Positions 28,398 to 51,270 of a stretch of DNA of 64,000 bases are shown piece after piece. Source of the stretch: Nitrospira tepida (GTDB taxonomy: Bacteria; Nitrospirota; Nitrospiria; Nitrospirales; Nitrospiraceae); the NCBI RefSeq assembly GCF_947241125.1, contig NZ_OX365700.1, forward strand, positions 3,380,001 through 3,444,000. Direction: 5' to 3'. Every line of letters starts with the position of its first letter. The stretch's first letter is position 1. The notes under the pieces were generated by a model. That model saw only the letters and a program-made list of their open reading frames with translations, searched no databases and was not told the origin of the DNA. The position numbers were made by a program, and so were the translations under genes.

Positions 28398-28429
28398 GGT
28401 TTGTCCCTCTTCGCCTTGCTCGTGAATAA

Positions 28430-33358: not shown

Positions 33359-33466
33359 ATGGGTGAAAAAAGTTCAAAATTGTTTGACATTATAGTTTTG
33401 GCCGGCATGGTTGTCAACATCATTTTGGCCGTGTTTCTCATCCTCTATTACTTTGATATTCTATGA
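33359..33466 (+). CDS. 35-residue single-helix membrane protein
   Basis: A short frame on the plus strand: MGEKSSKLFD followed by one long hydrophobic helix (about 22 residues) and a YYFDIL end. An excellent ribosome site (AAGGGG, six bases before ATG) supports it. It is divergent from the oxidase transcript and its stop overlaps the end of the SUMF1-like gene by six bases. Local base use is more A/T-rich than the neighbouring genes. Function is unknown; an oxidase-associated peptide is one possibility. Confidence 0.6.
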   Translation: MGEKSSKLFDIIVLAGMVVNIILAVFLILYYFDIL

Positions 33467-34375
33467 TTTTTCGGCCTCTTTCCTGTTCTGATCTCCACCC
33501 CATTTTCCGCTCACGGCGCAGCGAAATCCGATGGTTTCGTCCCGAAAATCAGGAACCATTTTGTTTCGGCTTGTCAGCCTTACGTCTCCCCCTGTCGTCG
33601 TATAGCTTCCCCCCCTGAGAACACGAAACATGCCGTACTCCGGGCTGGGCGGATTCTTCTCCGGCGAGTCCCTGTACGCGGTTTCCAAATACCAGTCGGC
33701 AACCCATTCCATGACGTTGCCCGCGCCATCCATCACCCCATAAGGGCTGCGGTCGTCTTGAAATGACCCGGCCGGGGCGGTCACTTCGGCCCCATCCTGT
33801 ACGCGGGCCCAATTGGCGCTTCCAGGCCGTTCCTCGTTGCCCCAGGGCCACAGCCGCCCATCCGGACCACGCATGGCCTTTTCCCATTCTGCCTCGCTCG
33901 GGAGTCGCTTGTTTTTCCAGGCACAATAGGCTTGCGCGTCGTCATGAGACACGTAAACCACCGGCTGGTTTGCGGAGCGCATCCGTGCCATGTTTTTCGC
34001 ATATCGGGAAGGCGGTCCCGCCTTTCGATGACCGCTGGCCGCGACGAAGGCCTCATATTGATGGTTCGTGACTTCATAACGATCGATCGAAAAGCCGTCT
34101 AAAAAGATCTCCCTCTGCGGCGCTTCGTCAAAACCGCCCTGGTCATAGCCGCGAATGAACGGCCCGGGGGGAATGTATACCATCTCTTCGTTAATGGGTG
34201 TCTCTTCCCGACCAAGATCCTGGGACGGCAATGACTGGGTAAGTGAGCGACCCGAGGGATTTTCCACTTTTTCAAATGGGGTCAAGGAGGTGCCGCGGAG
34301 AATCCCCATGATCGGAAGACCGGCGAATACGGCGACCGCGATGAGAATCGCGACTTTGAATCTCGTTTCGAGCAT
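33461..34375 (-). CDS. Membrane-anchored SUMF1-fold protein, copy 1
   Basis: This 304-residue protein has one N-terminal membrane anchor (VAILIAVAVFAGLPIMGIL) and a C-type-lectin-like SUMF1/FGE domain: YIPPGPFIRG, EVTNHQYEAF, LPSEAEWEKAMRG, WPWGNE, GNVMEWVADW and the terminal IGFRCAVSG. The two active-site cysteines of true formylglycine-generating enzymes are missing in the RLTSRNKMVPDFRDETIGF region, so it probably acts as a binding or structural protein. It is 24 bases downstream of a second copy, between the two bd-like oxidase genes. Confidence 0.85.
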   Translation of the reverse strand: MLETRFKVAILIAVAVFAGLPIMGILRGTSLTPFEKVENPSGRSLTQSLPSQDLGREETPINEEMVYIPPGPFIRGYDQGGFDEAPQREIFLDGFSIDRYEVTNHQYEAFVAASGHRKAGPPSRYAKNMARMRSANQPVVYVSHDDAQAYCAWKNKRLPSEAEWEKAMRGPDGRLWPWGNEERPGSANWARVQDGAEVTAPAGSFQDDRSPYGVMDGAGNVMEWVADWYLETAYRDSPEKNPPSPEYGMFRVLRGGSYTTTGGDVRLTSRNKMVPDFRDETIGFRCAVSGKWGGDQNRKEAEKS

Positions 34376-34399
34376 AGCGTCACCCGAAGCAAAGCCGCC

Positions 34400-35329
34400 T
34401 CAGCCCTGCGACTTCTGAGAACCGGCCGCAGACTTTTCTCCGTCCCGCGCGCATCGGAATCCGATGGAACTGTCCGTTCGCCACATCTTGGCCTGAAACC
34501 GCTTCGCAACCCGCGCTCCATGCGCGGTCTCTCTCCAGGACCCGCCGCGAATCACCTTATGTTCGCCTTCGGTGGGCCCTTGAGGATCTCGAAAGGGCGA
34601 CTTCGCATAATAGTGCTCATCATATGTATCCGCCACCCACTCGGCCACGTTGCCGGTCATGTCGTAAAGGCCGTACGGACTTCGGCCCGCCTCGAATGAA
34701 CCAGGCGGCGCGAGATACTTAAATCCATCTTCGGCGCCGTCCAGATTGGCGCGATGGGACCCGAAATCATCCCCCCAGGGATAGCGGCGACGCCCTTCGC
34801 CGCGAGCGGCCTTCTCCCACTCTGCCTCAGTCGGAAGGCGCTTTCCCGCCCATTTACAGTAGGCAGTCGCGTCCGCCCAGGACATCCCGATGGCCGGCAG
34901 TTCCGGTTTGGTGATCTTCGTAATATCGTCCTCGAACACCGGAATGAACGGTTTTCCGCGCTTGGTCATTTTGACGTATTGCTCGTACTCCCCTTGGGTG
35001 ATCTCTTTTTTGTCGATGTAATAGGTGCTCAGATAGACCTGATGCTCTGGCGCCTCGTCTGGGTCGCCTTCCGTGCTGCCCATGCGGAACGGTCCTTCAG
35101 GGATCTGCACCATTTCGTGCCCGTCCTCGCCTACGAACGTCTTGTACATCGAATAGTCCTGCTCGGACACGGCCGGCACCGCTTGCGTTTCCGTTCTTTT
35201 AAGCTGGGCCAGCGCCTCCTCACGCGCTTTCTTATTGTCATACGACTGGCTCATCAGTCCGACGATCATCAGAAAGAACGATCCGAAGACGAAGATGATC
35301 GATCCGATCAGGACCTTGTTATTATCCAT
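34400..35329 (-). CDS. Membrane-anchored SUMF1-fold protein, copy 2
   Basis: This 309-residue protein has an N-terminal helix (VLIGSIIFVFGSFFLMIVGL), a coiled charged linker and an SUMF1/FGE domain with QIPEGPFRMG, EITQGEYEQY, LPTEAEWEKAARGE, YPWGDD, GNVAEWVADT and IGFRCARD. The cysteine pair of active formylglycine-generating enzymes is absent (KRFQAKMWRTDSSIGF instead). It is a diverged tandem paralogue of the next gene. Anchored domains facing the periplasm beside oxidase genes suggest a structural part of the respiratory complex (inference). Confidence 0.85.
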   Translation of the reverse strand: MDNNKVLIGSIIFVFGSFFLMIVGLMSQSYDNKKAREEALAQLKRTETQAVPAVSEQDYSMYKTFVGEDGHEMVQIPEGPFRMGSTEGDPDEAPEHQVYLSTYYIDKKEITQGEYEQYVKMTKRGKPFIPVFEDDITKITKPELPAIGMSWADATAYCKWAGKRLPTEAEWEKAARGEGRRRYPWGDDFGSHRANLDGAEDGFKYLAPPGSFEAGRSPYGLYDMTGNVAEWVADTYDEHYYAKSPFRDPQGPTEGEHKVIRGGSWRETAHGARVAKRFQAKMWRTDSSIGFRCARDGEKSAAGSQKSQG

Positions 35330-36482: not shown

Positions 36483-38354
36483 CTAAGTTTCCTGCGTTGG
36501 AGTTGGAACCCAGGCGGGCGACTTAGCCGAAGCGGCGCGTCGGTCCGCGGCCGAGGCCAACCCCTTCTCGCTCAACCAGAAGACGAACAGCACCGCGACC
36601 CAGAACACCACCATGTTCAACGTCACCATTTTGGCCGCAAACCCAAGCGAGGGAGTGAATGCCCAGGGCGACACATCCGGCATCAGCTCGCTGACGTGCC
36701 AGGCCAGCCGCCCGGACGAACGAATGTAGCCCATCAACCCCATGACCCACGTGAACGCCGCCGCGATGGCGAACAGTCCGACCATGCCGCGATCCGTCAT
36801 GCGGCCCCATTGGACTGGCCCATGCACCACCGCCCCGCGCAACATGGCGCGGTTGATCAAGGCGCCTCCCATCACCACCGTCAACGTCGTCAGCGCCTGG
36901 GGACCTGACAAGGCCACCCGGAGACTGGCGGGAAGATAAAACCCATAGATCGACAGCCAGGTGATGTGTCCCATTCCCAGCAGATAGAGCACCCCGATGG
37001 CCAGGTTCCCCTTCCGCACCCAGGGCACGGTCATCGTCCGATTGGCGCGGCGGTAAAAGATATAACTCAGCCCGGTCAGACAGATCATCAAATTCACGGC
37101 GCCGTTTTTGGCCGACATGACGCCGTAGTTGCCGATGACCGGATGTTGAGCCCCGCCCATCGCCTTCAGCTCGCCCGGCGACATCATGACCGTATGCGGC
37201 GTCAGCCACACCATCACGACGATCATCAAGCCCCACACGAGAAACTGCGTATACTGCTGATATCGCTCCCCACCTTTCAATCTCGCGAGACTTTGCCACA
37301 GATAGTAGTTAATGCCGAGAAACAGCGCGCCAATCAGAAGCGCCTGCACGACGAACAGCCAGGTCAGCAGTCCACCCATCATCGTTACGCCCATGCTCTG
37401 ACGCCAGGCGTAGACGGACCGCATCAGCCAATAGCCGGCGAACGGCATCGGCAGCAACGCACAGACCGTCACGAAGAGGAAGATATAACCGACCCAATCA
37501 TAGTAGGCCCGCTCTTCCGGTTCCTTGCTCGTCAGGAAGCGGTACGACGCATAGGCCAGCACCACCGCGCCTCCCGACATGATGTCGGCCAGAAAACGAT
37601 GGACGTTCAACGGATTCCACAAGGCGGAATGCAACAGATGCCAGGCGTTCCCGAGAAACCGACCCTGGGCGTCCACGCCCGCCGGCGACATCATGAACGC
37701 CGCCCAGGCGTTGGCCAGCAACAGCAGGGCGCCGCCAAACACGTTGGTGACAACCCCGATGGCGGCATGGATCCACTTCCACCCCGCCACAGCAAGGCGA
37801 TCCCAACTGTAGTAGTAGATAATCAATAACAGCGCTTCTCCAGGGAATACGATGGCATAGGCCGGCATCATGGATTTGAAGGTGCCGCCCATATACTGCA
37901 TGAAGTGCGGATACAGCAGGATGAACAAGGCCAGCATGGCGCTCCCGACCAGCGCCGTGATGGACATCGCCAACAACGCTACGCGCGCAAAATCCTTGGC
38001 CAGACGGTCATACTTGGCGGACAGCGCCGGGTCCCGCGCGATCAGCCCCAGAAATTCGATCAAGACACAAAAGATCGGAAGGGCGAGGACGAATCCGCCG
38101 AAGTAGGTATGCTGTTGCGTGACGAACCAGACGAGCAGGCGGCTGTCAAATGACCCGATCGTCGGATAGGCAATCTCCTCAGCGACAGGGGCCGGCGGTC
38201 CGCTGGGCACGCCCGGTGTTTTGAAAAACACATCGACGGAATCCGTCGCCGTCCCCGCCGGGATCGGAGACTCCGCACCGGCCGGTGCGACGCCGACGGC
38301 AAGGACGACGATCCACAACAACAGCCCGCGCCGGATGAGCTTTGCGGCGTTCAT
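36483..38354 (-). CDS. bd-like terminal oxidase large subunit, copy 2
   Basis: This 623-residue membrane protein is a paralogue of the one at 30817-32766 and has the same layout: a signal-like start, about fourteen helices, VTQQHTYFGG, GEALLLIIYYYSWDR, MMSPAGVD, HLLHSALWNP, LTPHTVMMSPGELKAMGG and QHPVIGNYGVMSAKNG. The aligned Glu of the Glu-rich helix and all shared His motifs are kept, so it should bind hemes like copy 1. It lacks dedicated cytochrome c genes downstream; instead it is grouped with a DUF420 protein and a PCP_red-domain protein, hinting at a different partner or assembly path. Confidence 0.83.
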   Translation of the reverse strand: MNAAKLIRRGLLLWIVVLAVGVAPAGAESPIPAGTATDSVDVFFKTPGVPSGPPAPVAEEIAYPTIGSFDSRLLVWFVTQQHTYFGGFVLALPIFCVLIEFLGLIARDPALSAKYDRLAKDFARVALLAMSITALVGSAMLALFILLYPHFMQYMGGTFKSMMPAYAIVFPGEALLLIIYYYSWDRLAVAGWKWIHAAIGVVTNVFGGALLLLANAWAAFMMSPAGVDAQGRFLGNAWHLLHSALWNPLNVHRFLADIMSGGAVVLAYASYRFLTSKEPEERAYYDWVGYIFLFVTVCALLPMPFAGYWLMRSVYAWRQSMGVTMMGGLLTWLFVVQALLIGALFLGINYYLWQSLARLKGGERYQQYTQFLVWGLMIVVMVWLTPHTVMMSPGELKAMGGAQHPVIGNYGVMSAKNGAVNLMICLTGLSYIFYRRANRTMTVPWVRKGNLAIGVLYLLGMGHITWLSIYGFYLPASLRVALSGPQALTTLTVVMGGALINRAMLRGAVVHGPVQWGRMTDRGMVGLFAIAAAFTWVMGLMGYIRSSGRLAWHVSELMPDVSPWAFTPSLGFAAKMVTLNMVVFWVAVLFVFWLSEKGLASAADRRAASAKSPAWVPTPTQET

Positions 38355-39460
38355 CGGATCTGCTCCACAGTCACGGCCGGCATGGATTGATGGGTCTCCG
38401 GAACCGGCAACGCCTGCGGCGGCGGGACCATGCCATCGCCCATCCCCATCTGTTTCGACAGCAATCCCATGACGAACGGACAGCGCAGCACGGCGGCGGG
38501 AATCGTCCCCTGTAACCTGGTTTCAAACGACCGGCGGGCGCCCAAATAATAGGAGTAGAGTCCCATGAGGCCGCCGACGCATCCCGCAACGGCCGCGAAT
38601 TGCCAGCCGACATGAAGGGGCCGTTGCAAGGCGAATACGAACAGGCCATAGACCGCCAGAAGATAGGTTGCGGCAAAGGCCAATCCCGGCCACCACCAGA
38701 ATTTGGCCAGCTCCAGCCAGCCGGTGCGCCGCCACTGCGCGAGCCAATCGGAGGACTCGTTCAGCCCGGCAAGGTAGGCGGCCAGGGAAATCGAGCCGGC
38801 GGCCAAGATGGCCATCACCAGGTGGAGAAGCGGCACCGGCCCCTCCGAAGCCGCCGAGGTCACGGCCAGCGCCAGCAAGGCTGTCGCACCCACGCCGGCA
38901 GCCGTCCAACTCAAGAGCACCCGCGGCCGCTGCCACAACATTCCGCGAAGGCTCGCGCCGCTGGGAAACGTGAGAAACGAACGGCCCTGCGATTCCATCC
39001 GTCGCAGATGGCCGATCTCAAACGCATCACGAGCCACGGCGGTATTGGGAATGATGATCGCCATCATGGCCGGCCCCTCTGGGTGAGTCAGGAAATCATA
39101 GTTCACCGCCACCTGCAAGAGAGCCAGCACCAGCAACGACAGTTGGACCGCATACACGAATCCGACCCACCCGAGCAGCCAGGCCCACCGGCTTGGACGC
39201 TCGGCACGAGGCAGATCGGACCACGGCGCCTGTCGCCCTGCGGCATAACAGACCCCGGCGGTGACGACCGCCAGGCTCCCGCTCGTGACCAGCAACGGCA
39301 CCGCCTCGGACAGTGGCACGACGAGTTTCAATGCGCGATAGGCCACGAAGATGGCCAGCCCCGCGACGAACATTACGATCCGCTTCCGGGAGCGAACGGC
39401 CGGTTCAGTCACGGTCAGACTGAGTTGAGGCAGGACACGAAGCGCAAGTCGGTGCAACAT
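38351..39460 (-). CDS. Polytopic membrane protein of unknown function
   Basis: I do not recognise this 369-residue protein. It has about eight hydrophobic segments (among them IVMFVAGLAIFVAYRAL, GFVYAVQLSLLVLALLQVAV and GLAFAATYLLAVYGLFVFAL) and a Met/Pro-rich C-terminus. Its stop overlaps the start of the second bd-like oxidase (ATGA), so it is translated just before it and is likely a partner or assembly factor (inference). A soluble segment around residues 150-190 (DAFEIGHLRRMESQG) faces one side of the membrane. Confidence 0.7.
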   Translation of the reverse strand: MLHRLALRVLPQLSLTVTEPAVRSRKRIVMFVAGLAIFVAYRALKLVVPLSEAVPLLVTSGSLAVVTAGVCYAAGRQAPWSDLPRAERPSRWAWLLGWVGFVYAVQLSLLVLALLQVAVNYDFLTHPEGPAMMAIIIPNTAVARDAFEIGHLRRMESQGRSFLTFPSGASLRGMLWQRPRVLLSWTAAGVGATALLALAVTSAASEGPVPLLHLVMAILAAGSISLAAYLAGLNESSDWLAQWRRTGWLELAKFWWWPGLAFAATYLLAVYGLFVFALQRPLHVGWQFAAVAGCVGGLMGLYSYYLGARRSFETRLQGTIPAAVLRCPFVMGLLSKQMGMGDGMVPPPQALPVPETHQSMPAVTVEQIR

Positions 39461-39471
39461 AAGACGATCAA

Positions 39472-39975
39472 TCAGGGCTTCTGCGCCATTCCGAAATACT
39501 TGGCCTTCACTTCCTCCATCAACGCCACCGACACGCTGGAGAGACCGCGATCGGCGGCCGTCCGCTCCAGTTCAAGTCGCGCCATCGCTCGAATAGAGGC
39601 CGGAACCCGATCCAGCCGTTGCCAAGCCGCAGGGTCCCAGGCCACGGCCGTTCCCTGCCGGGCCTCGGCAAACAGGTCATAGGTGACGACACGATGCCGG
39701 GCCGCGCGCGCGTAGCGCTCCACCTCCGGCTTCAACAGCTCCTGCACGTAGGGCGGAAGCCGCTCCAAGCAATGCTTCGCGTCGTCGCTCCAGATCAGCC
39801 GATCGACCAATCCGAACGTCTCGCCGCTCGCCTCCCCGGCTGCAACATCCGCGCCGACGCGCAACCCGCAACCCAAACACTCAGACCGGACGAACCACAT
39901 CGGCTCGCCTGCCGGGCCGAGCCGCTCCTCAACGCCCTGCGTATGCATCCACCGCCCGCATCCACAGACCAGCAT
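39472..39975 (-). CDS. Zinc-ribbon protein with a PCP_red domain
   Basis: The protein of about 167 residues has two cysteine pairs near the N-terminus (CGCG and CLGCG) that may form a zinc ribbon. Its C-terminus matches the PCP_red domain found at the end of light-independent protochlorophyllide reductase subunit B: AWQRLDRVPASIRAMARLE then VALMEEVKAKYFG. In non-phototrophs this domain is of unknown role. The start at 39975 has AAAGG upstream. It lies in the second bd-like oxidase group beside a DUF420 protein. Confidence 0.75.
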   Translation of the reverse strand: MLVCGCGRWMHTQGVEERLGPAGEPMWFVRSECLGCGLRVGADVAAGEASGETFGLVDRLIWSDDAKHCLERLPPYVQELLKPEVERYARAARHRVVTYDLFAEARQGTAVAWDPAAWQRLDRVPASIRAMARLELERTAADRGLSSVSVALMEEVKAKYFGMAQKP

Positions 39976-40026
39976 GATGCCTTTGACCCGTGCCTTCCGC
40001 CGGCTGTTGCCGACCGGATCCAACCG

Positions 40027-40743
40027 TTACCCGATTTTCCCGGGATAGAGAATATACAGCATGGTGTACGTCACGCTGCCCGTGATGAACAGGATGCAAT
40101 AGATCACCATCGTGAAGGTGCCGAGCGCCCGATGACGGCGCTCGCCGTTGGGCCAGATCCGCTGGATCAGAATCTCGAGACCGAACACGATCGCGAGCAA
40201 CACCAGAAATCCGAGATACACTTCCATCTTGCGCATGGAAAAGCCTGCGGTCACGACCCGGGAAAGAAACAAGACGACCACGACGCCCGTGATCGACCCG
40301 AAGAGCAGGCCGACCTTCCGCCAGGACGTTTGGAGCACGGCATCCTTCAGCACACGCCGGTCGCCGACAAGGGCCTGCGAACGGAACCCCAGCACGATCA
40401 TATAGATCGCCATCACAATCCCGATCACCACCAGTATGATATGGAAAGTCAGCAACGGAATGAAGACGCCATGATAGAGTTCCTCGGACCCCCCGAATCC
40501 TTCTTTCCCCTCGAATGCCAGCACGCCGAGCGAGCGAAACAGATAATAGTTCACGAAGAACACCAGCATCGCGATCATGCCGCCGAGCATCAACCAATGG
40601 TGGGCATGGCCCTGTTTCCGCTTGGCCTGCACCCAGCCCACGATGAACAGCGCGGTGAACAGCGTCGCCATCAATTGGCTCAGGTCAGCCCCGACCGTCG
40701 CATGCGTGGCAAAGAACCCCGGTTGTCGAAGCCACTCGGTCAT
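40027..40743 (-). CDS. DUF420 family membrane protein
   Basis: This 238-residue protein has about six membrane helices and DUF420 features: ADLSQLMATLFTALFIVGW, the loop KRKQGHAHHWLMLGG, and FHIILVVIGIVMAIYMI with a histidine in the helix. DUF420 proteins are often encoded with cytochrome oxidase and heme-handling genes, and several His residues could ligate heme. This agrees with a role in assembly of the bd-like oxidase (inference). The methyltransferase gene ends eight bases upstream. Confidence 0.8.
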   Translation of the reverse strand: MTEWLRQPGFFATHATVGADLSQLMATLFTALFIVGWVQAKRKQGHAHHWLMLGGMIAMLVFFVNYYLFRSLGVLAFEGKEGFGGSEELYHGVFIPLLTFHIILVVIGIVMAIYMIVLGFRSQALVGDRRVLKDAVLQTSWRKVGLLFGSITGVVVVLFLSRVVTAGFSMRKMEVYLGFLVLLAIVFGLEILIQRIWPNGERRHRALGTFTMVIYCILFITGSVTYTMLYILYPGKIG

Positions 40744-40750
40744 CGTGTGC

Positions 40751-41824
40751 TCAGGCCGCCCGGCGTCCCTGGACGACGGCGGTGGCTTCCAGCTCTTCGG
40801 CTGATTCGAATCCTGCCCGCCTCATCCATTCCAAGGCTTCGCTCGTCTTATAGCAGCGGCCTCGCGCGGTATTGACCAGGATGTGCACCGCGAACGCGGT
40901 CGTCCAGGCAGGGGCCGTCCCGCTTTCATCCAGAAAGCGGTCCTTGATGACCAGTCTCCCGCCGGGCGACAGGCGCTCAAAGGCCTTGGCGACCAATGAT
41001 GCGTTCATCTCGAAGTCTTGATAGTGGAGAATGTCGGACATCAGGATCAGGTCGTACGGACCGCCCAGCGGGTCGCGGTTGAAATCTCCCGGCTGAAGAC
41101 GGATGCGGCCCTCCAACTCGGCCTCTTTCACAACCCCCTCGGTGATGCGCAAGGTTTCCGGCAAGTCGAATACGGTGGCCGTCAGGCCGGGATAGGTTTG
41201 ACAAAACGCAATGGCATTGGTGCCCGCGCCGCCTCCTAAATCCAGCATCGTTCGGGCCTGTTCCGCATCCAGGCGCTTCGCAAAGCCAGGGCCGGACTGC
41301 TGACCGATACGATGGAGCACCGACAACACGTTCGCGCCGAGCTCCGGATCGGTCTCGAACACATGCCGGCTGACCGAAGACCGGCCGGTTCTAATCGCCG
41401 TCTCGAGACGCCCCCAATTGTCCCATTCGGCGTCATGCAGGACCAACAGGTGGCCGACATATTGCGGAGACGTCTTCACCAGATGTTGCTGGGCCACGGG
41501 CGTATTGGCGTACCGACCCTCCGATGCGGCCAGCACCCGCATCGCGACCAGCGCATTGAGCAGCAGCGCCAAGGTCCCCTCATGGACTCCCAGCCTGTCG
41601 GCCGCCTCCCTCGCCGTCCACGCCTTCCCATCCAAACAGGAAAACACATCCAACTTCACGGCGGTCAACAGGATTTTCGTTTCCCAGTAGTATCCAAGCT
41701 GGAAAATCTCGGCCAGAGTCAGATCGCGAGCCACGTGCACTCCATCAGAATGAATCCGGGCATAATACCGAGTCCGTTCGAGCAAAGGCAAGGTCGCGAC
41801 GAGCGGACCGGCGCCGAACGCCAT
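40751..41824 (-). CDS. SAM-dependent O-methyltransferase (acetylserotonin OMT-type)
   Basis: This 357-residue enzyme has an N-terminal winged-helix dimerisation domain (FQLGYYWETKILLTAVKLDVFSCL, AREAADRLGVHEGTLALLLNALV) and a Rossmann methyltransferase domain with DLGGGAGTNAIAF as the SAM-binding loop and DILHYQDFEMNASLVAKAF. The family includes small-molecule O-methyltransferases and BchU-type pigment enzymes, so the substrate is open. The true start may be later than 41824, because a terminator hairpin lies only 17 bases upstream. Confidence 0.82.
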   Translation of the reverse strand: MAFGAGPLVATLPLLERTRYYARIHSDGVHVARDLTLAEIFQLGYYWETKILLTAVKLDVFSCLDGKAWTAREAADRLGVHEGTLALLLNALVAMRVLAASEGRYANTPVAQQHLVKTSPQYVGHLLVLHDAEWDNWGRLETAIRTGRSSVSRHVFETDPELGANVLSVLHRIGQQSGPGFAKRLDAEQARTMLDLGGGAGTNAIAFCQTYPGLTATVFDLPETLRITEGVVKEAELEGRIRLQPGDFNRDPLGGPYDLILMSDILHYQDFEMNASLVAKAFERLSPGGRLVIKDRFLDESGTAPAWTTAFAVHILVNTARGRCYKTSEALEWMRRAGFESAEELEATAVVQGRRAA

Positions 41825-41916: not shown

Positions 41917-42705
41917 TTACTTCTTGACCTGGAAATCCGCCTTCACGGATCCGCCCTCAGGCACATCCACGTCGGCTTCCATCTTTCCGGCGAACGGATG
42001 CCAGGCCATGATCTTGTGCTTGCCGGCCGGCACATCCTTGAGTTCGAACGTCCCGTCCTCTTTCACCACGGCATAGTGCTTGTTCTGGACCGGGAGGAAG
42101 AACGCCTGCATGAACTCATGTTGATCGCACTGGAGACGGAAGAAGGACCCGGCCTTCTCTTGGCGAAGCGTGATCGGCTTTTCGAGCTTGGATCCCTTCT
42201 CGGCAAGACCGATGTTGAAAATGGTGGAGGAACTGGGTCCCTTGACCTCGAAGGAATGCGGGTTGTGGAGCACGCCCTTTACGGACTTGGGATCGTCGGG
42301 GTCCGAATCGTGATTCTCGACCCGGAACATTTTCTTGTTCACGACGATGCCGCTGAACGGCTGAAAATCACAGAACTCCGCGACGACATCCGTGCCCCCG
42401 TACCCGTCCATGAACGCCTTGTCTTCGATGTCACGAACCGACACCACCGCGTTCTTCAACGCCCCGTCCTTGCCGACTTCGATCGTCTTGAGGAACCGCT
42501 TGTCCCCATCCATAACGTCCTTGTTCGGAATCTTGGGACAGAATTTCGGATTGGGGAACTTGGAAAACAAGAATTCCTTCTGCTCGGCCTTGCCGGCATA
42601 GGTCACCTTCCCGGTCACGGTGCCGCCGGCAAAGGACGCCAGCGGAGCCGCCAGGAAGGAGGCTGCGATGAGACCCGACATACCTAGTAACGCACCTGTC
42701 TTCAT
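41917..42705 (-). CDS. Exported C-x2-H-x2-M protein, copy 1
   Basis: A protein of about 262 residues with a signal peptide (ALLGMSGLIAASFLAAPLASFAGG) and a carboxypeptidase-regulatory-like beta domain near the end (DGTFELKDVPAGKHKIMAW). It has the motif LQCDQHEFM (C-x2-H-x2-M, near residues 193-199) and an earlier His pair (HNPH, near 147-150). A Cys-His-Met group plus an upstream His is what a type 1 copper site needs, though the spacing differs from plastocyanin. AAGGAGG precedes the start at 42705. It shares this plan with two proteins next to the multicopper oxidase. Confidence 0.75.
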   Translation of the reverse strand: MKTGALLGMSGLIAASFLAAPLASFAGGTVTGKVTYAGKAEQKEFLFSKFPNPKFCPKIPNKDVMDGDKRFLKTIEVGKDGALKNAVVSVRDIEDKAFMDGYGGTDVVAEFCDFQPFSGIVVNKKMFRVENHDSDPDDPKSVKGVLHNPHSFEVKGPSSSTIFNIGLAEKGSKLEKPITLRQEKAGSFFRLQCDQHEFMQAFFLPVQNKHYAVVKEDGTFELKDVPAGKHKIMAWHPFAGKMEADVDVPEGGSVKADFQVKK

Positions 42706-42769
42706 GATGACTGCCTCCTTGATGGTTGAACAAAATCTTTCGGTGTCCATGCCGACCAGCCCCAGGAAA

Positions 42770-42798
42770 ATTCTACTCTGTGCCTCAAGGCTTCACAA
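42770..42798 (-). promoter_or_regulatory. Promoter for C-x2-H-x2-M copy 1
   Basis: On the minus strand TTGTGA is followed after 17 bases by TAGAAT, about 65 bases ahead of the start codon. The rest of the region to 42980 holds no reading frame I trust. Confidence 0.55.
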
Positions 42799-42931
42799 GG
42801 CAGGGGTCGTGAAGCTGGTTGGCCACACCCATTCCCCTAGTTAGACGCACGAGTGATCGGAGGGACTGTACCGACTCCCAAAAGAGCCACTTTTATACAG
42901 AATCCACCATCCTGAGTCAACCGTGCCACAA

Positions 42932-42948
42932 CCGGCTCCATGAGCCGG
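42932..42948 (-). terminator. Weak hairpin downstream of the HEAT-repeat gene
   Basis: CCGGCTC and GAGCCGG flank a 3-base loop, some 35 bases past the stop of the HEAT gene. Only a short TT follows, so terminator strength is doubtful. Confidence 0.35.
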
Positions 42949-42980
42949 CTGCACGCTCTGGACCGCGGTAAGGGGATGGC

Positions 42981-44411
42981 TCACGAACGCGCCGGCGCCG
43001 TCTGCTGATCCTGGCGCAGCAGGCGAATCAATGAGGCGGCAGCCGTCGCCTGCACCGCCGCATCCTGGTCACGCAAGGCCTCCTTGAGGTCCGGAATGTG
43101 GTTGCGGTCTCCGATGCGGCCCAGGGACCGGGCCGCGGCAATCCTGGGGCGTGGCAGAGGATCGTGCAGGATCTGATCCAGATAGGCCAGCGCGGCCTGC
43201 CGATTCGGCCCCGCGCCTCGCGCCAGCGCCTTGGCCACCGCCGAACGAGGCCCTGGGTCCTGAGCTCGCATAAGGCCACGCACGGCTTCCTCGATATCCG
43301 GGAAGGGCTCGCCCAATCGGAGCATCGAGTCCACCGCCGCGCCCTTCACCCCCGGATCCGGATCTTGAAACGCCTTTCGGAGAACAGGGACAGCCTCTTT
43401 GTTCCCCAATTCGCCCAACGCAACCGCCGCGCTGGACCGGACCGCCGGAATCTTGTCACTCATCAGCGTGACGAGCGGCTCGAACCCCTCTGCCTTCCCC
43501 AACATGCCCAACGCCGCCGCCGCCCCTCCCCGCACGGACGGTTGTGGATCGCGGCTGCCCGCGATCGCGAATTTCAACCCGCGTGGGTCCTTGAGCTCTC
43601 CCATCACGCGCAAGGCCGTGCTCCGCGCCTCGGGGTTCGCGGCTTGCGCGGCCTGCGTCAGCCCTGCCCAGGATTCCTTATGGCCGAAACGCAGCAGGGC
43701 TCCGATGGCCTGCACCCGCACCATCGGTTGCTCGTCGTTCAGCGCCTGTTCGAGGAATGGTCGTTCGCGCTTGTCGCCGTTGAGCCCGACCGCCCGCACG
43801 ACATTGGCCCGGACCATCGAGGCCTGGTCTTCGATCGCCTTGCGCAGCCTGGCCGACTTCCGGCCGTTCTTCAATTGGCCCAAGGCTTCGGCCGCCAGCG
43901 CGCGGACAAGTCCCGATCCGTCGCTGAGCCCGTCTTCGAGGTCTGGCACCACCGCTTCGGACTCCAACTCCTTCAGCGCCGAATAGGCGGCGCCTCGCAT
44001 TTGCTCGCGCATGTCTTTAAACAACACCCGAATAAACGCCATGGCGACGCCTTCCAAGAGCGCCTCCTCGTCGCGTCCGCGCTCCTGCACCAGGTGGTCA
44101 TAGACATCCAGCGCATCTTTGGGGCGGCCGAGTTCGACCAGCGTCTTGGTCTTGAGCCTGCGCGCCTGGATGGACAGCGCGTTGTTCTCGCCCAGGCGAT
44201 CCAACAACTCCAGAGCCTGGGGATAGCGCCGCTCCACAAACGCGGTTTCCGCCTCCCGTTCGAGGGCCGGAGCAGAGACGCCCTCAGCAGCCCCTGCATC
44301 CTGAACGAGGAACGGCAGGCCTAGGCCCAGCCATACGGCGACCCACCCCACCATTCCCGCCATTCGCGCGAGGAAGCGCGGGAGGATGCGTTTACTGTTG
44401 GTATTCGACAA
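42981..44411 (-). CDS. Exported HEAT-repeat protein
   Basis: This 476-residue protein has a hydrophobic N-terminal helix (MVGWVAVWLGLGLPFLV) that looks like a signal peptide, a TPR-like stretch (ALELLDRLGENNALSIQARRLK), then about eight HEAT/PBS-lyase-type repeats such as LVRALAAEALGQLKN, AVRSSAAVALGELGN and RPRIAAARSLGRIGD. These repeats form a curved binding surface. The apparent TTG start overlaps the previous gene by 20 bases, so translation is likely coupled; the ATG at 44363 is an alternative. It probably serves as a scaffold for the exported copper-protein group (inference). Confidence 0.8.
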   Translation of the reverse strand: MSNTNSKRILPRFLARMAGMVGWVAVWLGLGLPFLVQDAGAAEGVSAPALEREAETAFVERRYPQALELLDRLGENNALSIQARRLKTKTLVELGRPKDALDVYDHLVQERGRDEEALLEGVAMAFIRVLFKDMREQMRGAAYSALKELESEAVVPDLEDGLSDGSGLVRALAAEALGQLKNGRKSARLRKAIEDQASMVRANVVRAVGLNGDKRERPFLEQALNDEQPMVRVQAIGALLRFGHKESWAGLTQAAQAANPEARSTALRVMGELKDPRGLKFAIAGSRDPQPSVRGGAAAALGMLGKAEGFEPLVTLMSDKIPAVRSSAAVALGELGNKEAVPVLRKAFQDPDPGVKGAAVDSMLRLGEPFPDIEEAVRGLMRAQDPGPRSAVAKALARGAGPNRQAALAYLDQILHDPLPRPRIAAARSLGRIGDRNHIPDLKEALRDQDAAVQATAAASLIRLLRQDQQTAPARS

Positions 44412-45333
44412 GGGGTTTGATATCGACCGGATGGCCCAGCGATTCCGGCCCGAATCGGGGATTTTCCATCACCTTGAACGCTGACCGATTGCCCTTCGGC
44501 GCCTCGAGGGCGATGTCCTCGACGAGGCGCCCCTGTGGCCCCACGGTGACCATTCGGGAGACGCCGGGACCGGATTGCGGATGCCAGACGATGAGCTGGT
44601 AGGTGCCGGGCGGTACATGGTCCAGACGGTATGAGCCGTCCGGTCCGGTCACAGCGTAATAGGGATTGTTCACCGCCATGGCCCAGCTTTCCATAAAGGC
44701 ATGGAAGCCACACTGCATGTAGAACGTCCGCCGGCCGCGGTTGAGATAGATCGGCCCGACCAATGATCGTCCAGGCTCATGATCGTGGGTGGCATGTAGA
44801 TCTCCCCGGTGGTGGAGGGCGTTCATCCGCAGCGGCGAATTGAACAGGACCCTCGTCCCGGCCTGCAAGGAAGTCTCATACCCTTGGATGTCGTGCATGA
44901 CCGGATCCATGTTCACCACCTCCACGGCATGGCCGTTGCGCACGATGGTGACAAAGGGCTTGAACTGGCAGTCCCGCGCTTCGATGAGCGGCACCGAGAG
45001 GTCGAACGGCTTGCCGCGCTCCACCCCTTCCAGAAGCACGACGGCGTCCTTGAGCCCGGCCTTCCGGTCCACGACGAAATCATAGAGCAACCGCCAGCCT
45101 TTGCCGTTGGAAATGCGGCCGCAGTATTGCGGATCGGGAAAGGTGATCAGGTTGAATCCCTTGGGCTCAGGCACGTCGCCTTGCAAGGTCACGCGTCCCT
45201 CGATCGTCCCGCCTTCCTTGACCTCGATGACCTCATACGACGATGCCTGCGCCGGAAGCCACAGGGCCAGGACGATCGCGCAGCAGATGAGCCGGCTCAC
45301 GCAGAAACGGGGACGGACCACATGACGGCTCAT
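44392..45333 (-). CDS. Exported C-x2-H-x2-M protein, copy 2
   Basis: This 313-residue protein has a signal peptide (LICCAIVLALWLPAQA) and the same plan as its neighbour: GGTIEGRVTL at the start, the NMDPVMHDIQ segment (His147), the CGFHAFM motif (Cys208, His211, Met214) and a regulatory-like beta domain (DGSYRLDHVPPGTYQLIVWHP). A His-rich loop (HHRGDLHATHDH, 174-185) lies between and could bind extra metal. It is a candidate periplasmic copper protein of a family I cannot name. It is 21 bases downstream of copy 3. Confidence 0.75.
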   Translation of the reverse strand: MSRHVVRPRFCVSRLICCAIVLALWLPAQASSYEVIEVKEGGTIEGRVTLQGDVPEPKGFNLITFPDPQYCGRISNGKGWRLLYDFVVDRKAGLKDAVVLLEGVERGKPFDLSVPLIEARDCQFKPFVTIVRNGHAVEVVNMDPVMHDIQGYETSLQAGTRVLFNSPLRMNALHHRGDLHATHDHEPGRSLVGPIYLNRGRRTFYMQCGFHAFMESWAMAVNNPYYAVTGPDGSYRLDHVPPGTYQLIVWHPQSGPGVSRMVTVGPQGRLVEDIALEAPKGNRSAFKVMENPRFGPESLGHPVDIKPLVEYQQ

Positions 45334-45354
45334 GCCATCACCTCCGAAGACTGT

Positions 45355-46272
45355 TTAGGGTCTCTGCAATTCCAAGGTCGGCCGGATCTCGATCGACCGT
45401 CCGAGCGCTTCCAACCCGAAGTGGGGATTCTCGACGATCTCATGCGCGCTCCGGCGTCCCATCGGCGCCTTGAACTCAAAGGAAGCGGTCGCGGTTTCCC
45501 CGGCCTTCACCGTAATGTTCTGTTGCAACATCGGCCCGGTTTGAGGATGCCAGGCCGTCAATACATAGTCGCCGGGCGGTACCTCCGCCAGGGAAAAACT
45601 TCCGTCCGGTCCCGTGATCGCATAATAGGGATGCTCGATGGCCAACCCCCAACTTTCCATGTAGGCGTGGAACCCGCACTGCATGACGAAGATCCGGCGA
45701 TCCCTGGTCATGCGGACCTTCTGGATCATCGGCTCCCCGGGAATATGCTTGTGGTACTCGGCTCCGACCCCGGACTTGGGATGGTGCGGATTCATCGGCA
45801 AAGGGACGTTGAACAGCACCCGTGGCCCCAGATGCGAGGTCTCATAGGCCTGGATGTCATGCATGACCGGATCCATGTTCACGACCTTGACGTCATGATC
45901 GTCCCGCACCACGGTGACGAAGGGAAGAAACCGGCAATCGCGCGCTTCGATCGTCGGCGGCGTAAAGGCGAACGGCTTGCCACGCTTCACGTCGGCCAAC
46001 ATGACCACCACGTCCTTCAGCCCGCCGTCCTTCGACACGGTGAACTCTTCGAGGATACGCCATCCGGTTCCGGTGGAGATCCGCCCGCAATAGACCGGGT
46101 CCGGAAACGTAATGAGGTTGAATCCTTTGGGAATCGGCTTCCCGCCGGTGATGGTCACCGTTCCGGCAATCGTCCCCCCGTTCACAACAGCCATCTCTTC
46201 ATAGGCGCCCGCTCGGGGCGCAGACCACAGGACCCACATCGCCACGACTGTGACTGCGATTGATCGAACCAT
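45355..46272 (-). CDS. Exported C-x2-H-x2-M protein, copy 3
   Basis: This 305-residue protein has a signal peptide (AVTVVAMWVLWSAPRAGA) and is a close paralogue of copy 2: GGTIAGTVTI, FNLITFPDPVYCGR, NMDPVMHDIQ (His139), CGFHAYM (Cys199, His202, Met205) and a DGSFSLAEVPPGDYVLTAWHP domain. A conserved DC pair (RDCRF) precedes the His segment. It is the first gene after the multicopper oxidase, across a terminator, and may exchange electrons or copper with it (inference). Confidence 0.75.
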   Translation of the reverse strand: MVRSIAVTVVAMWVLWSAPRAGAYEEMAVVNGGTIAGTVTITGGKPIPKGFNLITFPDPVYCGRISTGTGWRILEEFTVSKDGGLKDVVVMLADVKRGKPFAFTPPTIEARDCRFLPFVTVVRDDHDVKVVNMDPVMHDIQAYETSHLGPRVLFNVPLPMNPHHPKSGVGAEYHKHIPGEPMIQKVRMTRDRRIFVMQCGFHAYMESWGLAIEHPYYAITGPDGSFSLAEVPPGDYVLTAWHPQTGPMLQQNITVKAGETATASFEFKAPMGRRSAHEIVENPHFGLEALGRSIEIRPTLELQRP

Positions 46273-46341
46273 GACCGGCCTCCGCTCAACGGCTCACACA
46301 CAGGTATTCGTCAGTCTACAAGACCCTGTCACCAAAAAGAA

Positions 46342-46366
46342 GGGGGAGCCATGTTCTGGCTCCCCC
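46342..46366 (-). terminator. Rho-independent terminator after the multicopper oxidase
   Basis: A perfect 10-bp stem (GGGGGAGCCA and TGGCTCCCCC) with a 5-base loop is followed on the minus strand by TTCTTTTT, 33 bases beyond the stop at 46399. Confidence 0.88.
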
Positions 46367-46398
46367 TCCCACACACGTTCCTCTCGGTCGATGAAACG

Positions 46399-49300
46399 TT
46401 ACCGGGAGGCCACCGGTTGTACCTGAGCCTCAGCCAGTGAATCGGCCTGCGCCTTCTTCACGCCGACCGCAGCCCCGGACAACGGCAGCAACCGTTGATC
46501 GCCGGCCGGCAGGACGCGCACATAGCCCCACTGACCGGACTGCGAGTACGGCAGCCGCTGGTTGCTGTAGGTAAAGTCGCCGGACAACCGGTATGGACCG
46601 CCTGCCGACGGGATGAACGCATCGATGACCTCCGAACCGGAATACTCGACGACGCTGATCATATCCGCGCCGCGCATGTACGGTTCAATCGGCCATTCAT
46701 GCTTCTCCACGCTGAACATGCCGTTCTGCTCGTTGGTCGCGCCCAGAATGTGGATCCGAACCGGATCGCCCGCATGCGCCTCGATGATGGGCGTGACGGG
46801 ATCTTCCGGCTTGTCGGCCACGCAGGGCTGGAACACACGACCCAGCGAGCACCCTAACTCTTCCCGGAACTTGTAGGGCTCGGACCGGTAATTCACCCCC
46901 GTCAGACCCGCCACGTTCTGGACATAGGGCATGAAGCTGGTCCCGATGATGTTGTCTTCGTCCTGGAAGAACAAGGCCGCATCGCGGTAGTTCGTCCGGA
47001 ACTCGTTGCCGGAAATCGTCCGGTCCACGATGACGTCCACCATCCAGGCATTCTTGTTGGACACGTCCGCGCCTGTCTTCGGATCGCGGTACTTGGAGCC
47101 CTTCGGGCCGACCACGATCGCGCCGAACAGACCGTTCCGCGGATTGACCATCGGATTGCCGCCGTCCCACACCAGCGAGGTGATCTCGCCGTTGGCAGGA
47201 TCGGCATAGTAGGTGTACGTGCGGCTCTCACCCGGAGCGACCGTCTGGTCATTCGGATTGTTGCCCACGTTCCAGCCGAGCGAGTCCTTCGGATCGAAGG
47301 CCAGGGACATGGCCGAGAACGAGGCCCGGCTGCTCTTCATCTTGTTTTTCAGGTTGACCTTGATGCAATCCCCCACGTTCACGTGCAGCGTCAGCGGCAT
47401 CGGTTGCGCATTCGCCACCGTGGCGATCTCGTCCTCCAGGACGTAGATCTTCGCGTCAGGATTGGTGATCTGGATCGTCCGCTCGAAGTCCACCTCGATG
47501 GACTCGGGCGCCTTCGCGTTGAACTTCATGTTCGGATAGTCGATCGCGACGACATTGAAGGACTTCACCGGAGCCTCGGCCGGGCAGACCGGAATCGGAG
47601 CCGGAATTTCGTTCCGTCCCGAATACCCGGCTGGGAGCCGCTGCAGGTCCGGCTGTTCCTTGTCGTACACGCGGAGAATACCCCACCCACCTTCAGACAG
47701 CTTGGAAGCGCGTCCGTTGAAGTGGATGTAATCGCCGGCTTGCAGCCGCGGCCCGCCGGCCTTCGGCACCACCAGGTCATACCGTTCGGCGATCCCGATA
47801 TGGATGGAGTTCTTCCGGTTCGCGTCGCCCGCATACCGTTCGGTCAAGAACGTATGGCCGGACAACGTCCACACCATCGACTCGTTCATCAGCGTGTGCA
47901 GCAGGCGGAACACCATCGTATCGCCCACATACGCGCGCAGCAGCGGCGTATAAGGATCGCCATGGATCGCGCTGTTGAACACCTGATGCACGTCGGGATT
48001 GGACGCCAGCCGTTGCGCGATGGGCCCCGCCCGGAAGTTCAAACCGCTCCCCGTGGTATGGGTTCCCCCGTTCAGGAACGGCATGGGCGTCATGTAGATC
48101 TTTTCCGGCATCTGGAACGACACGGTCTTGCCCGCTTCCAGCGCCACCTCGACCGGCTGGCCTGGCGGGTTGCCGGCGGTCACAATGTTCACCGTGTGGG
48201 GGACGGTGTCATGGACCTGCACCATCAATTCACGGAAGCTGCCGTTCACGTTATGCCCGACCGGTTCGATGGTATGAATGTCGGCGATCGGTCCGCTCCG
48301 GATCTGCTTGCCGGTTTTGGGGTCGTGGTAGGTGGACCCGACCGGCTCGGCAATGAAGGTCCCGAAACCGCCGTGCGGCCAAGTGGTCGCGCCGAAGGCG
48401 TGGTCGTGCCAGAACACGGTGCCCACGTCCGCATCGACCCAGAACCGCTGCCGCACGAACTCGACCGTCACGATGTCCTTGGCCGGGTGATCGTGCTTCA
48501 GGCCCTTGGTCAAGGTGATCGTGTTGCCCTTGATCTCCTTGATTCGGGCGACCTCGTTGCCCTTGACGTTATCCGCCCCAACCAGGATCAAGGTCTTGGG
48601 GTGGTATTGGGCGGCATTCTTCACGGTGATGCTGGTGGCCCCCTTCTTGGCAGGCGCCGTCAGCACCGTGTTCATCGGCACCGGCAGCCCCTTCTTGTCC
48701 TTCTTCTCCAGCATCGTGAACGGCCGCACCGATTGCTCATAGGAGAACCCGGTGATCACGCCGTCCGACGCCTGGTTGTCGAACTGAAGGAAGTGCCAAT
48801 GTGTATTGATCTTGGACGCCTGGAAGTTCGTGTAGTCGTCGTCTTCCCATTCGCTGGTCAACGTCCAATCGATGCAGTCATAGATGTTGCCGCGGACGAC
48901 CAGCGGATATTTGAGGTCGTCGTTGGCGCGAATCGCCGCTTCTTCCTCATGCAACACATAGATCAAGCCGGTCTGGTCGATCACAGGCGGCTCCTTGCCC
49001 TGCGCCTTCGCCAGCTTGATCGGGAGCTTGATGAAGTGCACGTTGTAGTGCTTATAGCCCGCATTCTCAGGGCACAAGCTCCACACGCCGTTTTCACCGG
49101 GCTTGGCCTGATCCAGGCTCTCTTCGCCATTGTCATCGCGGCGAATCGGTTCCAGCCACGGCGCGCCGACGTGATTCGGGGAGAACATCACGCGCTTCCC
49201 GAAATGCGGCGTCAGATGCGGCCAGGCCACGCGCCCGGTCGTCGGCTCGAAGGTGATCGGATGCCGCTTGCCCGGATGCGTGGACTTGTACTTGGGATTG

Positions 49301-51270
49301 TCGAACGTGCTTTCCTTCTCCGACATGGCCTTGTTGCCGTCCCAGATCCAATCCAGCACGGTGGCGTCATAGGACAGAATTTGGCCCTTCTCGTCATCCT
49401 TGTGACCGGGCTTGCCCTGCGTCGGCAACTGCATTTCGACCCAGTCCTTGATATTGATGACGGCCGGGTTGCCCTTCCAGTTGCTCTTGCCCTTGTCCAC
49501 GATCTTAAAGCTCTTTCCGAACCAATCGACTGTCGTGCCGACCAGCTTGTCGGAGGTCACGGGGTGCTTGATGCGGCCCTTGCGATCAGGCAGTTCGCGG
49601 AGGTCCGGCATCGTGTCGTTGCGATGGTCCCCGTGCTGCAGCGTGTTATACACCCGCCAATAGCCCCACATGCCCGCCACATAGTGGTGCGCCACGTGGC
49701 AGTGGAAGAGGAAGTCGCCGGCAAGTTGCTGGCACAGGCCCGACCCGCACTCCGTCTCAAGGTCCAGCGCTTCCGACGGTCCGATGACTTCGACGTCGAC
49801 ACGGTCGGTCTTGTGGCGGATGACCGGATACTTCACCGGCCCGTTCACGGAAACCGCCCAGAGGTTCATGTCGTCGATGGCCCGCGGGCTGCGCGGCCAG
49901 CGAATCGTCCCGCCGTGCGGATGGTGGGAATGGAACACCTCCGACCCGCCGTGCACCAGCCGGAACTTCGCCGGATCGCCCAAATAGGACCGCGGAATGG
50001 TCGGGGACGGATCGCCGAACGTATAGGAGCTATAGCCCATCGATTCGTCTTCAAACCCAAAATACTCGTGCTGCACGTGCATGTTGTTGATGCCGAACGG
50101 CTCGCTGCGATAGTTGATCGCGCGGGCGCCAGGCCGATACACGTCCGTCAACGGATCGCGTTGCGGCAGGAAGTCGCCCTTCTTGTTGACCGGGCGGAAC
50201 GCCTCGTCGCCCACTTCGTGATAGATCAACACGAATTCCCGGAAGTCCGGACCCGAGCCGTTGTCGATCATCACCTGCCAGCCACTGCTGGCCGCCTCGT
50301 CCTTGGAGGTCGGATCTCCGAGCGCCTGCAGGTAGGACGAGCCGCGCGGCTCGACGACGAAGGCCCCGAAGAGCCCGAGGACCGTCAACTCGCGATCGTT
50401 GCTGAAGCTGTGGAACTGCTTCACGCCTTCCTGCGCGGCCGGGTGGATGTACCATTCCATCTCCACCGCCTTGTCCGGCTTGGCCACCGAGTCCGGGTTG
50501 GTGGTGGTCGCCGCCTGGCCCGTGGCGCTGATCACCGGATAGGAGCCGTGGATGTGCAGGCTGACTTCGTCCACGCCTTCCAGCTTGTTCTCCAGCTTGA
50601 TCTTGACGCAGTCGCCCTGATTCGCGCGGAGCACGAGCGGCTCGATCCACTGCGCCTGGACGCCGGGGAGCACCGCCCCCGGATCATAGCCTTCCTTCTC
50701 CCGCGCCTCCTTGTTCTTCGTCTCTTCGGCCCGCACCTTGTCGAGGTTTTCCGCCAAGACATACATGTAGCCGGGATAGTAATCGAGCCACTGATTGAGG
50801 GTGATCTCGACGTTAATCGCCTGCACGTTGTACTGCTTGACGGGCGCGTACGCGGGACACTTGCCCCCGCCTTCCATGACCGGTTCGCGGCGCGGATCCG
50901 ACATCAACAGGAGGTCCTGGCCGCCGGCACCATATTGGTGCATCATGGACATGGTGTTGAAGTTCCCCGTGCTGACCTGCTGCACCTGCGGATCCTTGGC
51001 CATCTGCTCCATGATCCGTTGATGCTGCCGCTCAACCTGCGCCGAACGATCCGGGCGGCCCGACATCGCGTCTTCCACGACGGTCTGGCCCTTGAGCTGT
51101 TCCGCCCACTCCGGCGTGGCGTGCCCCATGGAGGTCTTATGGACCGAAGCATGGCCCTCATGGGACGTGTCTTCAGCCGCGCCGACTAGCGGGAGCGCCA
51201 GAAAGGCGCCTGCCGCCAGCAGGCTGACCCAACCATGAAGCGGTTGAATCTGATGGTGATGATTAAGCAT
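46399..51270 (-). CDS. Giant exported multicopper oxidase (MnxG-like)
   Basis: The 1623-residue protein has a signal peptide after a His-rich start, then multiple cupredoxin domains. The first third carries a full set of copper motifs: HIHG (about 239-242), FHSF (287), HSHHPH (447-452) and HCHVAHHYVAGM (523-534, with the T1 Cys and axial Met). A partial second set follows: HWHF (824-827) and HDHAFGATTWPHG (955-967). Length and plan recall MnxG-type manganese oxidases rather than the usual 500-residue laccases, but the substrate is not proven. AAGGAGG precedes the start, and the gene appears to be a single transcript with a promoter at 51485-51513. Confidence 0.85.
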   Translation of the reverse strand: MLNHHHQIQPLHGWVSLLAAGAFLALPLVGAAEDTSHEGHASVHKTSMGHATPEWAEQLKGQTVVEDAMSGRPDRSAQVERQHQRIMEQMAKDPQVQQVSTGNFNTMSMMHQYGAGGQDLLLMSDPRREPVMEGGGKCPAYAPVKQYNVQAINVEITLNQWLDYYPGYMYVLAENLDKVRAEETKNKEAREKEGYDPGAVLPGVQAQWIEPLVLRANQGDCVKIKLENKLEGVDEVSLHIHGSYPVISATGQAATTTNPDSVAKPDKAVEMEWYIHPAAQEGVKQFHSFSNDRELTVLGLFGAFVVEPRGSSYLQALGDPTSKDEAASSGWQVMIDNGSGPDFREFVLIYHEVGDEAFRPVNKKGDFLPQRDPLTDVYRPGARAINYRSEPFGINNMHVQHEYFGFEDESMGYSSYTFGDPSPTIPRSYLGDPAKFRLVHGGSEVFHSHHPHGGTIRWPRSPRAIDDMNLWAVSVNGPVKYPVIRHKTDRVDVEVIGPSEALDLETECGSGLCQQLAGDFLFHCHVAHHYVAGMWGYWRVYNTLQHGDHRNDTMPDLRELPDRKGRIKHPVTSDKLVGTTVDWFGKSFKIVDKGKSNWKGNPAVINIKDWVEMQLPTQGKPGHKDDEKGQILSYDATVLDWIWDGNKAMSEKESTFDNPKYKSTHPGKRHPITFEPTTGRVAWPHLTPHFGKRVMFSPNHVGAPWLEPIRRDDNGEESLDQAKPGENGVWSLCPENAGYKHYNVHFIKLPIKLAKAQGKEPPVIDQTGLIYVLHEEEAAIRANDDLKYPLVVRGNIYDCIDWTLTSEWEDDDYTNFQASKINTHWHFLQFDNQASDGVITGFSYEQSVRPFTMLEKKDKKGLPVPMNTVLTAPAKKGATSITVKNAAQYHPKTLILVGADNVKGNEVARIKEIKGNTITLTKGLKHDHPAKDIVTVEFVRQRFWVDADVGTVFWHDHAFGATTWPHGGFGTFIAEPVGSTYHDPKTGKQIRSGPIADIHTIEPVGHNVNGSFRELMVQVHDTVPHTVNIVTAGNPPGQPVEVALEAGKTVSFQMPEKIYMTPMPFLNGGTHTTGSGLNFRAGPIAQRLASNPDVHQVFNSAIHGDPYTPLLRAYVGDTMVFRLLHTLMNESMVWTLSGHTFLTERYAGDANRKNSIHIGIAERYDLVVPKAGGPRLQAGDYIHFNGRASKLSEGGWGILRVYDKEQPDLQRLPAGYSGRNEIPAPIPVCPAEAPVKSFNVVAIDYPNMKFNAKAPESIEVDFERTIQITNPDAKIYVLEDEIATVANAQPMPLTLHVNVGDCIKVNLKNKMKSSRASFSAMSLAFDPKDSLGWNVGNNPNDQTVAPGESRTYTYYADPANGEITSLVWDGGNPMVNPRNGLFGAIVVGPKGSKYRDPKTGADVSNKNAWMVDVIVDRTISGNEFRTNYRDAALFFQDEDNIIGTSFMPYVQNVAGLTGVNYRSEPYKFREELGCSLGRVFQPCVADKPEDPVTPIIEAHAGDPVRIHILGATNEQNGMFSVEKHEWPIEPYMRGADMISVVEYSGSEVIDAFIPSAGGPYRLSGDFTYSNQRLPYSQSGQWGYVRVLPAGDQRLLPLSGAAVGVKKAQADSLAEAQVQPVASR

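Follow-up and report, generated by a model that had tools for sequence, protein, structure and literature searches.

Predicted nested cupredoxins beside a giant MnxG-like multicopper oxidase as candidate periplasmic electron carriers of Nitrospira tepida and other Nitrospiria

What are three exported proteins with a C-x2-H-x2-M motif doing beside a giant multicopper oxidase (MCO) in Nitrospira tepida, and do they serve that oxidase alone? The locus lies in a 64,000-nucleotide stretch (NZ_OX365700.1 positions 3380001-3444000, hereafter the window) of the complete 4.73 Mb genome, whose source organism shares its family with Nitrospira moscoviensis and Candidatus (Ca.) N. defluvii and forms its own genus within the sampled genomes. 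The three proteins, here P1, P2 and P3, are predicted to be cupredoxins nested within a transthyretin-like domain, and we read them as general one-electron periplasmic copper carriers for which the MCO is one partner, with a probability of about 0.6. An initial annotation had grouped three exported C-x2-H-x2-M proteins with a HEAT-repeat protein and the giant MCO, and all of these genes are present, transcribed from the minus strand in the order MCO, P3, P2, HEAT-repeat protein, P1 (window coordinates):

46399-51270, minus strand: MCO, giant MnxG-like multicopper oxidase, 1623 amino acids, exported (PDB 9bxa; Pfam Cu-oxidase_3)
46338-46370, minus strand: terminator-like hairpin between MCO and P3, a 14-pair stem followed by a T-run
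45355-46272, minus strand: P3, exported nested cupredoxin (H138, C199, H202, M205; CGFHAYM and NMDPVMHD)
44392-45333, minus strand: P2, exported cupredoxin, P3 paralogue (CGFHAFM and NMDPVMHD)
42981-44411, minus strand: HEAT-repeat protein with an apparent signal peptide; overlaps the end of P2 and is kept in this operon
41917-42705, minus strand: P1, divergent exported cupredoxin (CDQHEFM and HNPHS) with the nested architecture of P3

For P1, a start at 42705 is better than one at 42750. Because the HEAT gene overlaps P2 and the gap between P3 and P2 is 21 bases, these three genes look like one transcription unit.

The C..H..M motif is not a chance occurrence: on 80 named contigs, 118 of the 119 full-length P1-P3 homologues have it, against 2 of the 1318 unassigned open reading frames. 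The conserved upstream His segment that had been noted for all three proteins is likewise present, as NMDPVMHD in P2 and P3 and as HNPHS in P1. Across 36 diverse homologues (down to 28% identity) H138, C199, H202 and M205 of P3 are invariant, as are N132, D134, C62, C113, W241 and H242 (P3 numbering), and P1 retains all four ligands (HNPH, CDQHEFM). P1-P3 thus each have the His, Cys, His and Met set in order and with cupredoxin spacing, and all begin with an apparent signal peptide (judged by eye). The ligand spacing had been described as unusually tight, which is incorrect: the copper ligands of amicyanin are H53, C92, H95 and M98 (PMC517927), and C-x2-H-x2-M equals its 92, 95, 98. Spacing was accordingly rejected as a novelty.

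AlphaFold2 models were built from alignments of sequences from the window and from fetched loci, and reached a predicted local distance difference test score (pLDDT) of 91.9 for P3 and 90.0 for P1. Fold matches of P3 were examined by structure comparison and Foldseek. Residues ~101-213 of P3 superpose on Cupredoxin_1 4hcg_B (Z 10.0, 2.0 A, 86 aligned), plastocyanin 7pcy (Z 9.8, 2.6 A, 89 aligned) and amicyanin 1mda_A (Z 8.7, 2.1 A, 82 aligned), and P1 matches 4hcg_B with Z 9.2, so both predicted models show the Greek-key cupredoxin fold. A second set of matches takes in the residues on either side: P3 28..269, with merely 83 residues aligned, falls on a single continuous domain II of rhamnogalacturonan lyase (1nkg; Z 9.8, 2.5 A), and P1 28..262, with merely 79 aligned, on carboxypeptidase D (1qmu_A; Z 12.1, 1.8 A). 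Since the split outer residues align to one continuous domain, the cupredoxin domain (P3 ~101-213) is, in these models, inserted into a carboxypeptidase-regulatory/transthyretin-like domain (~28-75 plus 214-269). The outer domain has the same fold as the carboxypeptidase D regulatory domain (PF13620/1qmu), which, unlike that of P1-P3, is not split by a cupredoxin. The splitting accounts for the Pfam match covering only the second half of the outer domain (profile 30-80 of 82); against the CarboxypepD_reg PF13620 gathering cut-off of 32.3, P3 scores above (37.5), P2 at (32.3) and P1 below it (20.1). PDB sequence searches with the cupredoxin part (phmmer and profile) matched almost only the outer domain, and the cupredoxin fold is visible by structure comparison only. 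A brief literature search found no description of this nested arrangement.

From the structural alignment of these confident models, which suggests that the four ligands may come together as a copper site, P1-P3 look like carriers of a type 1 copper site of the ordinary blue-copper kind. The initial annotation, which proposed the residues of a type 1 copper site joined to a regulatory-like beta domain, is supported here by the invariance of the ligands and the confidence of the models. Amicyanin and plastocyanin share the fold of P3 residues ~101-213, and amicyanin the C-x2-H-x2-M spacing, whereas the P1-P3 domain is nested in a second domain and is just ~10-19% identical to them. Nor is any of the three an amicyanin (MauC), a single-domain protein that goes with methylamine dehydrogenase; there is no methylamine dehydrogenase nearby.

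The best solved relative of the MCO is MnxG of Bacillus (PDB 9bxa, PMC5622069), likewise giant and matching across several cupredoxin domains with an expectation value (E) of 8.7e-79. The relationship is distant, the solved MnxG chain having 1227 amino acids against 1623 here, and because the MCO scores 139.9 bits with the NCBIfam MnxG model NF041487, far from its curated cut-off of 3100, we class it by sequence as an MnxG relative and do not call it MnxG. Ligand roles assigned from canonical MCO motifs give a type 1 site (H447, C524, H529, M534) and a trinuclear site (H450/H452, H523/H525, H824/H826, H955/H957), and all twelve ligands are conserved in at least 97% of 78 sequences; an enzyme with these ligands should reduce O2. 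Its neighbours are cupredoxins, where those of MnxG are MnxE/MnxF; no MnxE/MnxF-like gene was recognised among the syntenic neighbours, though no profile search aimed at them was made. Some MCO copies are peculiar. In two genomes of a related family the MCO match is split near residue 914 within a longer open frame (G179:C1:1684385-1689451 and G176:C13:7193-12280), probably by an insertion in the protein, and a contig labelled Opitutales (Verrucomicrobiota) encodes an MCO with 70% identity to that of Nitrospira, which is either a transfer or a binning error.

How firmly are oxidase and cupredoxins associated? Within the family the MCO occurs in 173 of 175 genomes and in all 22 genera (22/22), mostly in 2-3 copies. 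An even sample of the class Nitrospiria has it in 57 of 58 genomes; with P3 as query the cupredoxin is also found in 57/58, and the single genome without it is also without the MCO. In a 118-genome sample of the phylum the MCO is present in 25, all within the window organism's order, and it was not found in any sampled genome of other classes. Close cupredoxins (E <1e-50) occur in the same 25 genomes, and distant homologues (E 2e-30 to 1e-8) in 15 of the 93 without the MCO. Among the 78 MCO copies with enough downstream DNA, a cupredoxin gene lies directly downstream in 63 by a strict rule and in two more by eye. The co-occurrence with the oxidase that had been named as a check is therefore found, both at the level of adjacency (65/78) and class-wide. 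The close association is real, but it follows one clade. Co-occurrence was rejected as a statistical test: almost every genome of the class has both genes and none of those sampled from other classes has the MCO, so that phylogeny confounds it.

The cupredoxins are not confined to the oxidase. Eight members of the family are encoded in the genome, three in the MCO block and five more. One paralogue follows the third MCO copy, which also has a CopD-like gene near it. Another adjoins a module of HyfB-, NuoH-, HyfF/NuoM- and NuoCD-like genes at about 257001-268454 of the contig, a pairing that recurs in 7 Nitrospiraceae genomes (source genome included) and points to a complex I-like enzyme served by a copper carrier. 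Yet another lies ~4 kb from a gene for a type II dimethyl sulfoxide (DMSO)-reductase alpha subunit, most likely NxrA; genes for a sigma-54 response regulator and a histidine kinase stand in between, and the arrangement recurs in a second genome (2 in all). A FastTree phylogeny, a rough method that here leaves several outer branches long, separates the P3 types (support 98), the P2 types (99) and a third clade (99), in which carriers next to an MCO are interspersed with carriers next to the Hyf module (22 rows, support 100). A dedicated pairing of cupredoxin and MCO is weakened by such close relatives beside Hyf/complex I-like genes and near NxrA.

The surroundings of the block have been seen before. 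Luecker et al. 2013 described a region of N. defluvii and Nitrospina gracilis, conserved with Kuenenia, that holds alt_NxrC, cytochromes c, a zinc finger protein, two cupredoxin-like copper proteins and a bd-like oxidase, together with an MCO that resembles the one in Bacillus SG-1; they proposed that this enzyme protects against reactive oxygen by way of Mn(III) (PMC3578206). Downstream of P1, the genes of the window include:

40751-41824, minus strand: O-methyltransferase-like protein, syntenic
40027-40743, minus strand: DUF420 membrane protein, syntenic
39472-40023, minus strand: small protein with a Cys-rich N-terminus, similar to the BchB C-terminus, syntenic
38351-39460, minus strand: membrane protein without a Pfam family, syntenic
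36483-38354, minus strand: cytochrome bd-like oxidase subunit, presumably bd-like_4 of the literature (PMC6606698)
30817-32766, minus strand: cytochrome bd-like oxidase subunit, presumably bd-like_3 (PMC6606698)
28430-30739, minus strand: two c-type cytochromes, 28430-29389 with one CxxCH and 29423-30739 with two
26625-28439, minus strand: alt_NxrC-like protein with a DMSO-reductase type II gamma-like domain and two CxxCH (PMC6606698)

The window thus brings together alt_NxrC, cytochromes c, a bd-like oxidase, cupredoxins and the MCO in a cluster associated with nitrite oxidoreductase (NXR), and the order MCO, P3, P2, HEAT, P1, methyltransferase, DUF420, two further genes and bd-like oxidase is conserved across Nitrospira. 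Because the region matches the one described in 2013, in which the cytochromes c are mono- and diheme and the MCO is likewise MnxG-like (PMC3578206), our finding in part rediscovers a cluster known since then. The system had been called uncharacterised at first, which holds for its biochemistry but not for the cluster. Matched by description, the two cupredoxin-like proteins of 2013 compare with three in the MCO block of the window; the Kuenenia version, unlike the window, is without the MCO. The product of 39472-40023 is possibly the 'zinc finger' protein of that report. In N. moscoviensis the alt_NxrC_2 and bd-like_3 genes were among the 40 most strongly transcribed (2019 study, PMC6606698). 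At 33461-35329, within the bd-like cluster, the window also encodes two formylglycine-generating-enzyme-like (FGE-sulfatase) proteins, and similar genes lie near several other MCO copies.

Nearly every MCO copy with sufficient sequence behind it has a GC-rich hairpin right after its stop codon, and all MCO groups seen are represented. The arms of this hairpin are similar in sequence across genera, and between MCO groups it changes on both arms (by eye). The core, GGGGGAGCC-N-GGCTCCCCC, occurs a single time in the 4.73 Mb genome, and Rfam gave no relevant match at the hairpin. The likeliest role is that of an intrinsic terminator separating or attenuating expression of the downstream carriers, although for a terminator or attenuator it is unusually conserved.

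We favour general carriers because related cupredoxins recur beside the MCO, beside the complex I-like module and near NxrA. From sequence, gene order, ligand conservation, fold, the class-wide association with the MCO and the recurrence beside other modules we infer copper binding, electron carriage, the partners and the direction of flow. A plastocyanin/amicyanin-like domain with one predicted type 1 copper would carry single electrons, and the transthyretin-like outer domain would probably serve docking. P1-P3 would then be part of the periplasmic respiratory machinery of Nitrospiria, passing electrons among several partners: the MnxG-like MCO, in which electrons would enter at the type 1 copper and reach O2 at the trinuclear site; the NXR / alt-NxrC / bd-like branch; and the complex I-like module in the case of close paralogues. 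Several observations weigh against this. Gene neighbourhood is no proof of electron transfer; the copies at the Hyf module and NxrA form a sister clade of P2/P3 and are not identical proteins; P1, being divergent, might hold another metal or act in the delivery of copper; and the conserved terminator-like hairpin lies between MCO and P3, so that oxidase and carriers may lack a common transcript.

The alternatives overlap with the carrier role, which is silent on the substrate of the MCO; its reductant may be Mn(II), Cu(I) or electrons from a cupredoxin. It is possible, if doubtful, that Mn(II) is the substrate of the MCO and is oxidised with O2 to Mn(III)/Mn(IV), that Mn(III) removes superoxide, as suggested by Luecker et al. 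2013 (PMC3578206), and that the cupredoxins are accessory like MnxE/MnxF. MnxG is the sole strong structural relative of the MCO and needs copper-binding partner proteins (PMC5622069), N. defluvii is without superoxide dismutase and catalase (PMC3578206), and in the phylum sample the MCO is confined to the window organism's order (25/118). Against this, the MnxG similarity is distant (140 bits versus 3100), cupredoxins of the same family also accompany modules unrelated to Mn, and the recognised neighbours include nothing like MnxE/MnxF, for which no specific search was made. A role in copper homeostasis, in which the cupredoxins bind copper or deliver it to the MCO and other cuproenzymes while the MCO oxidises Cu(I) like CueO/CopA, is unlikely: the full His/Cys/His/Met set is typical of electron-transfer cupredoxins, and recurrence with complex I-like and NXR genes better suits respiration, despite a weak CopA-type MCO similarity (18.8 bits), the CopD-like gene near the third MCO copy and the CupA copper chaperone 4f2e among the fold matches of P3.

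More improbable still is lithotrophy, with the MCO taking electrons from Mn(II)/Fe(II) and giving them to cupredoxins that feed the respiratory chain. Ca. Manganitrophaceae belong to the same phylum as the window organism, also conserve an MCO across their lineage, with two 'novel MCOs' each, and grow on Mn(II); an MCO-based Mn lithotrophy would require a periplasmic acceptor (PMC9040806), and cupredoxins adjoin most MCO copies here. However, with an intact trinuclear site the MCO would be expected to pass its electrons to O2, the Manganitrophaceae authors favour Cyc2 and PCC_1 (PMC9040806), and nearly all members of the present family, nitrite oxidisers for which growth on Mn is not known, have the MCO. 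The initial proposal of a metal-oxidation system goes beyond what is seen here: the MCO is MnxG-like but near-universal in the whole class, and related cupredoxins recur without any MCO beside the complex I-like module and near NxrA.

Nitrospira are widespread nitrite oxidisers, in which the path of electrons from NXR is unsettled. As general carriers, the nested cupredoxins, encoded in 57 of 58 sampled genomes of the class and found beside the MCO, the complex I-like module and NxrA, would be a testable candidate for part of that path. All analysed Nitrospira genomes are without a canonical haem-copper oxidase (PMC6606698). We would venture, as a speculation more likely wrong than right, a periplasmic copper branch of Nitrospiria in which nested cupredoxins take up electrons from NXR as well as from the complex I-like module and can discharge them to O2 via the soluble MCO, or collect them from Mn(II) through the MCO. 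If true, this branch would give these widespread nitrite oxidisers a second, non-haem route from nitrite (or metal) to O2. Should the MCO oxidise Mn(II), a Mn oxidase gene would be present almost throughout the class, which would bear on the origin of Mn lithotrophy in Manganitrophaceae.

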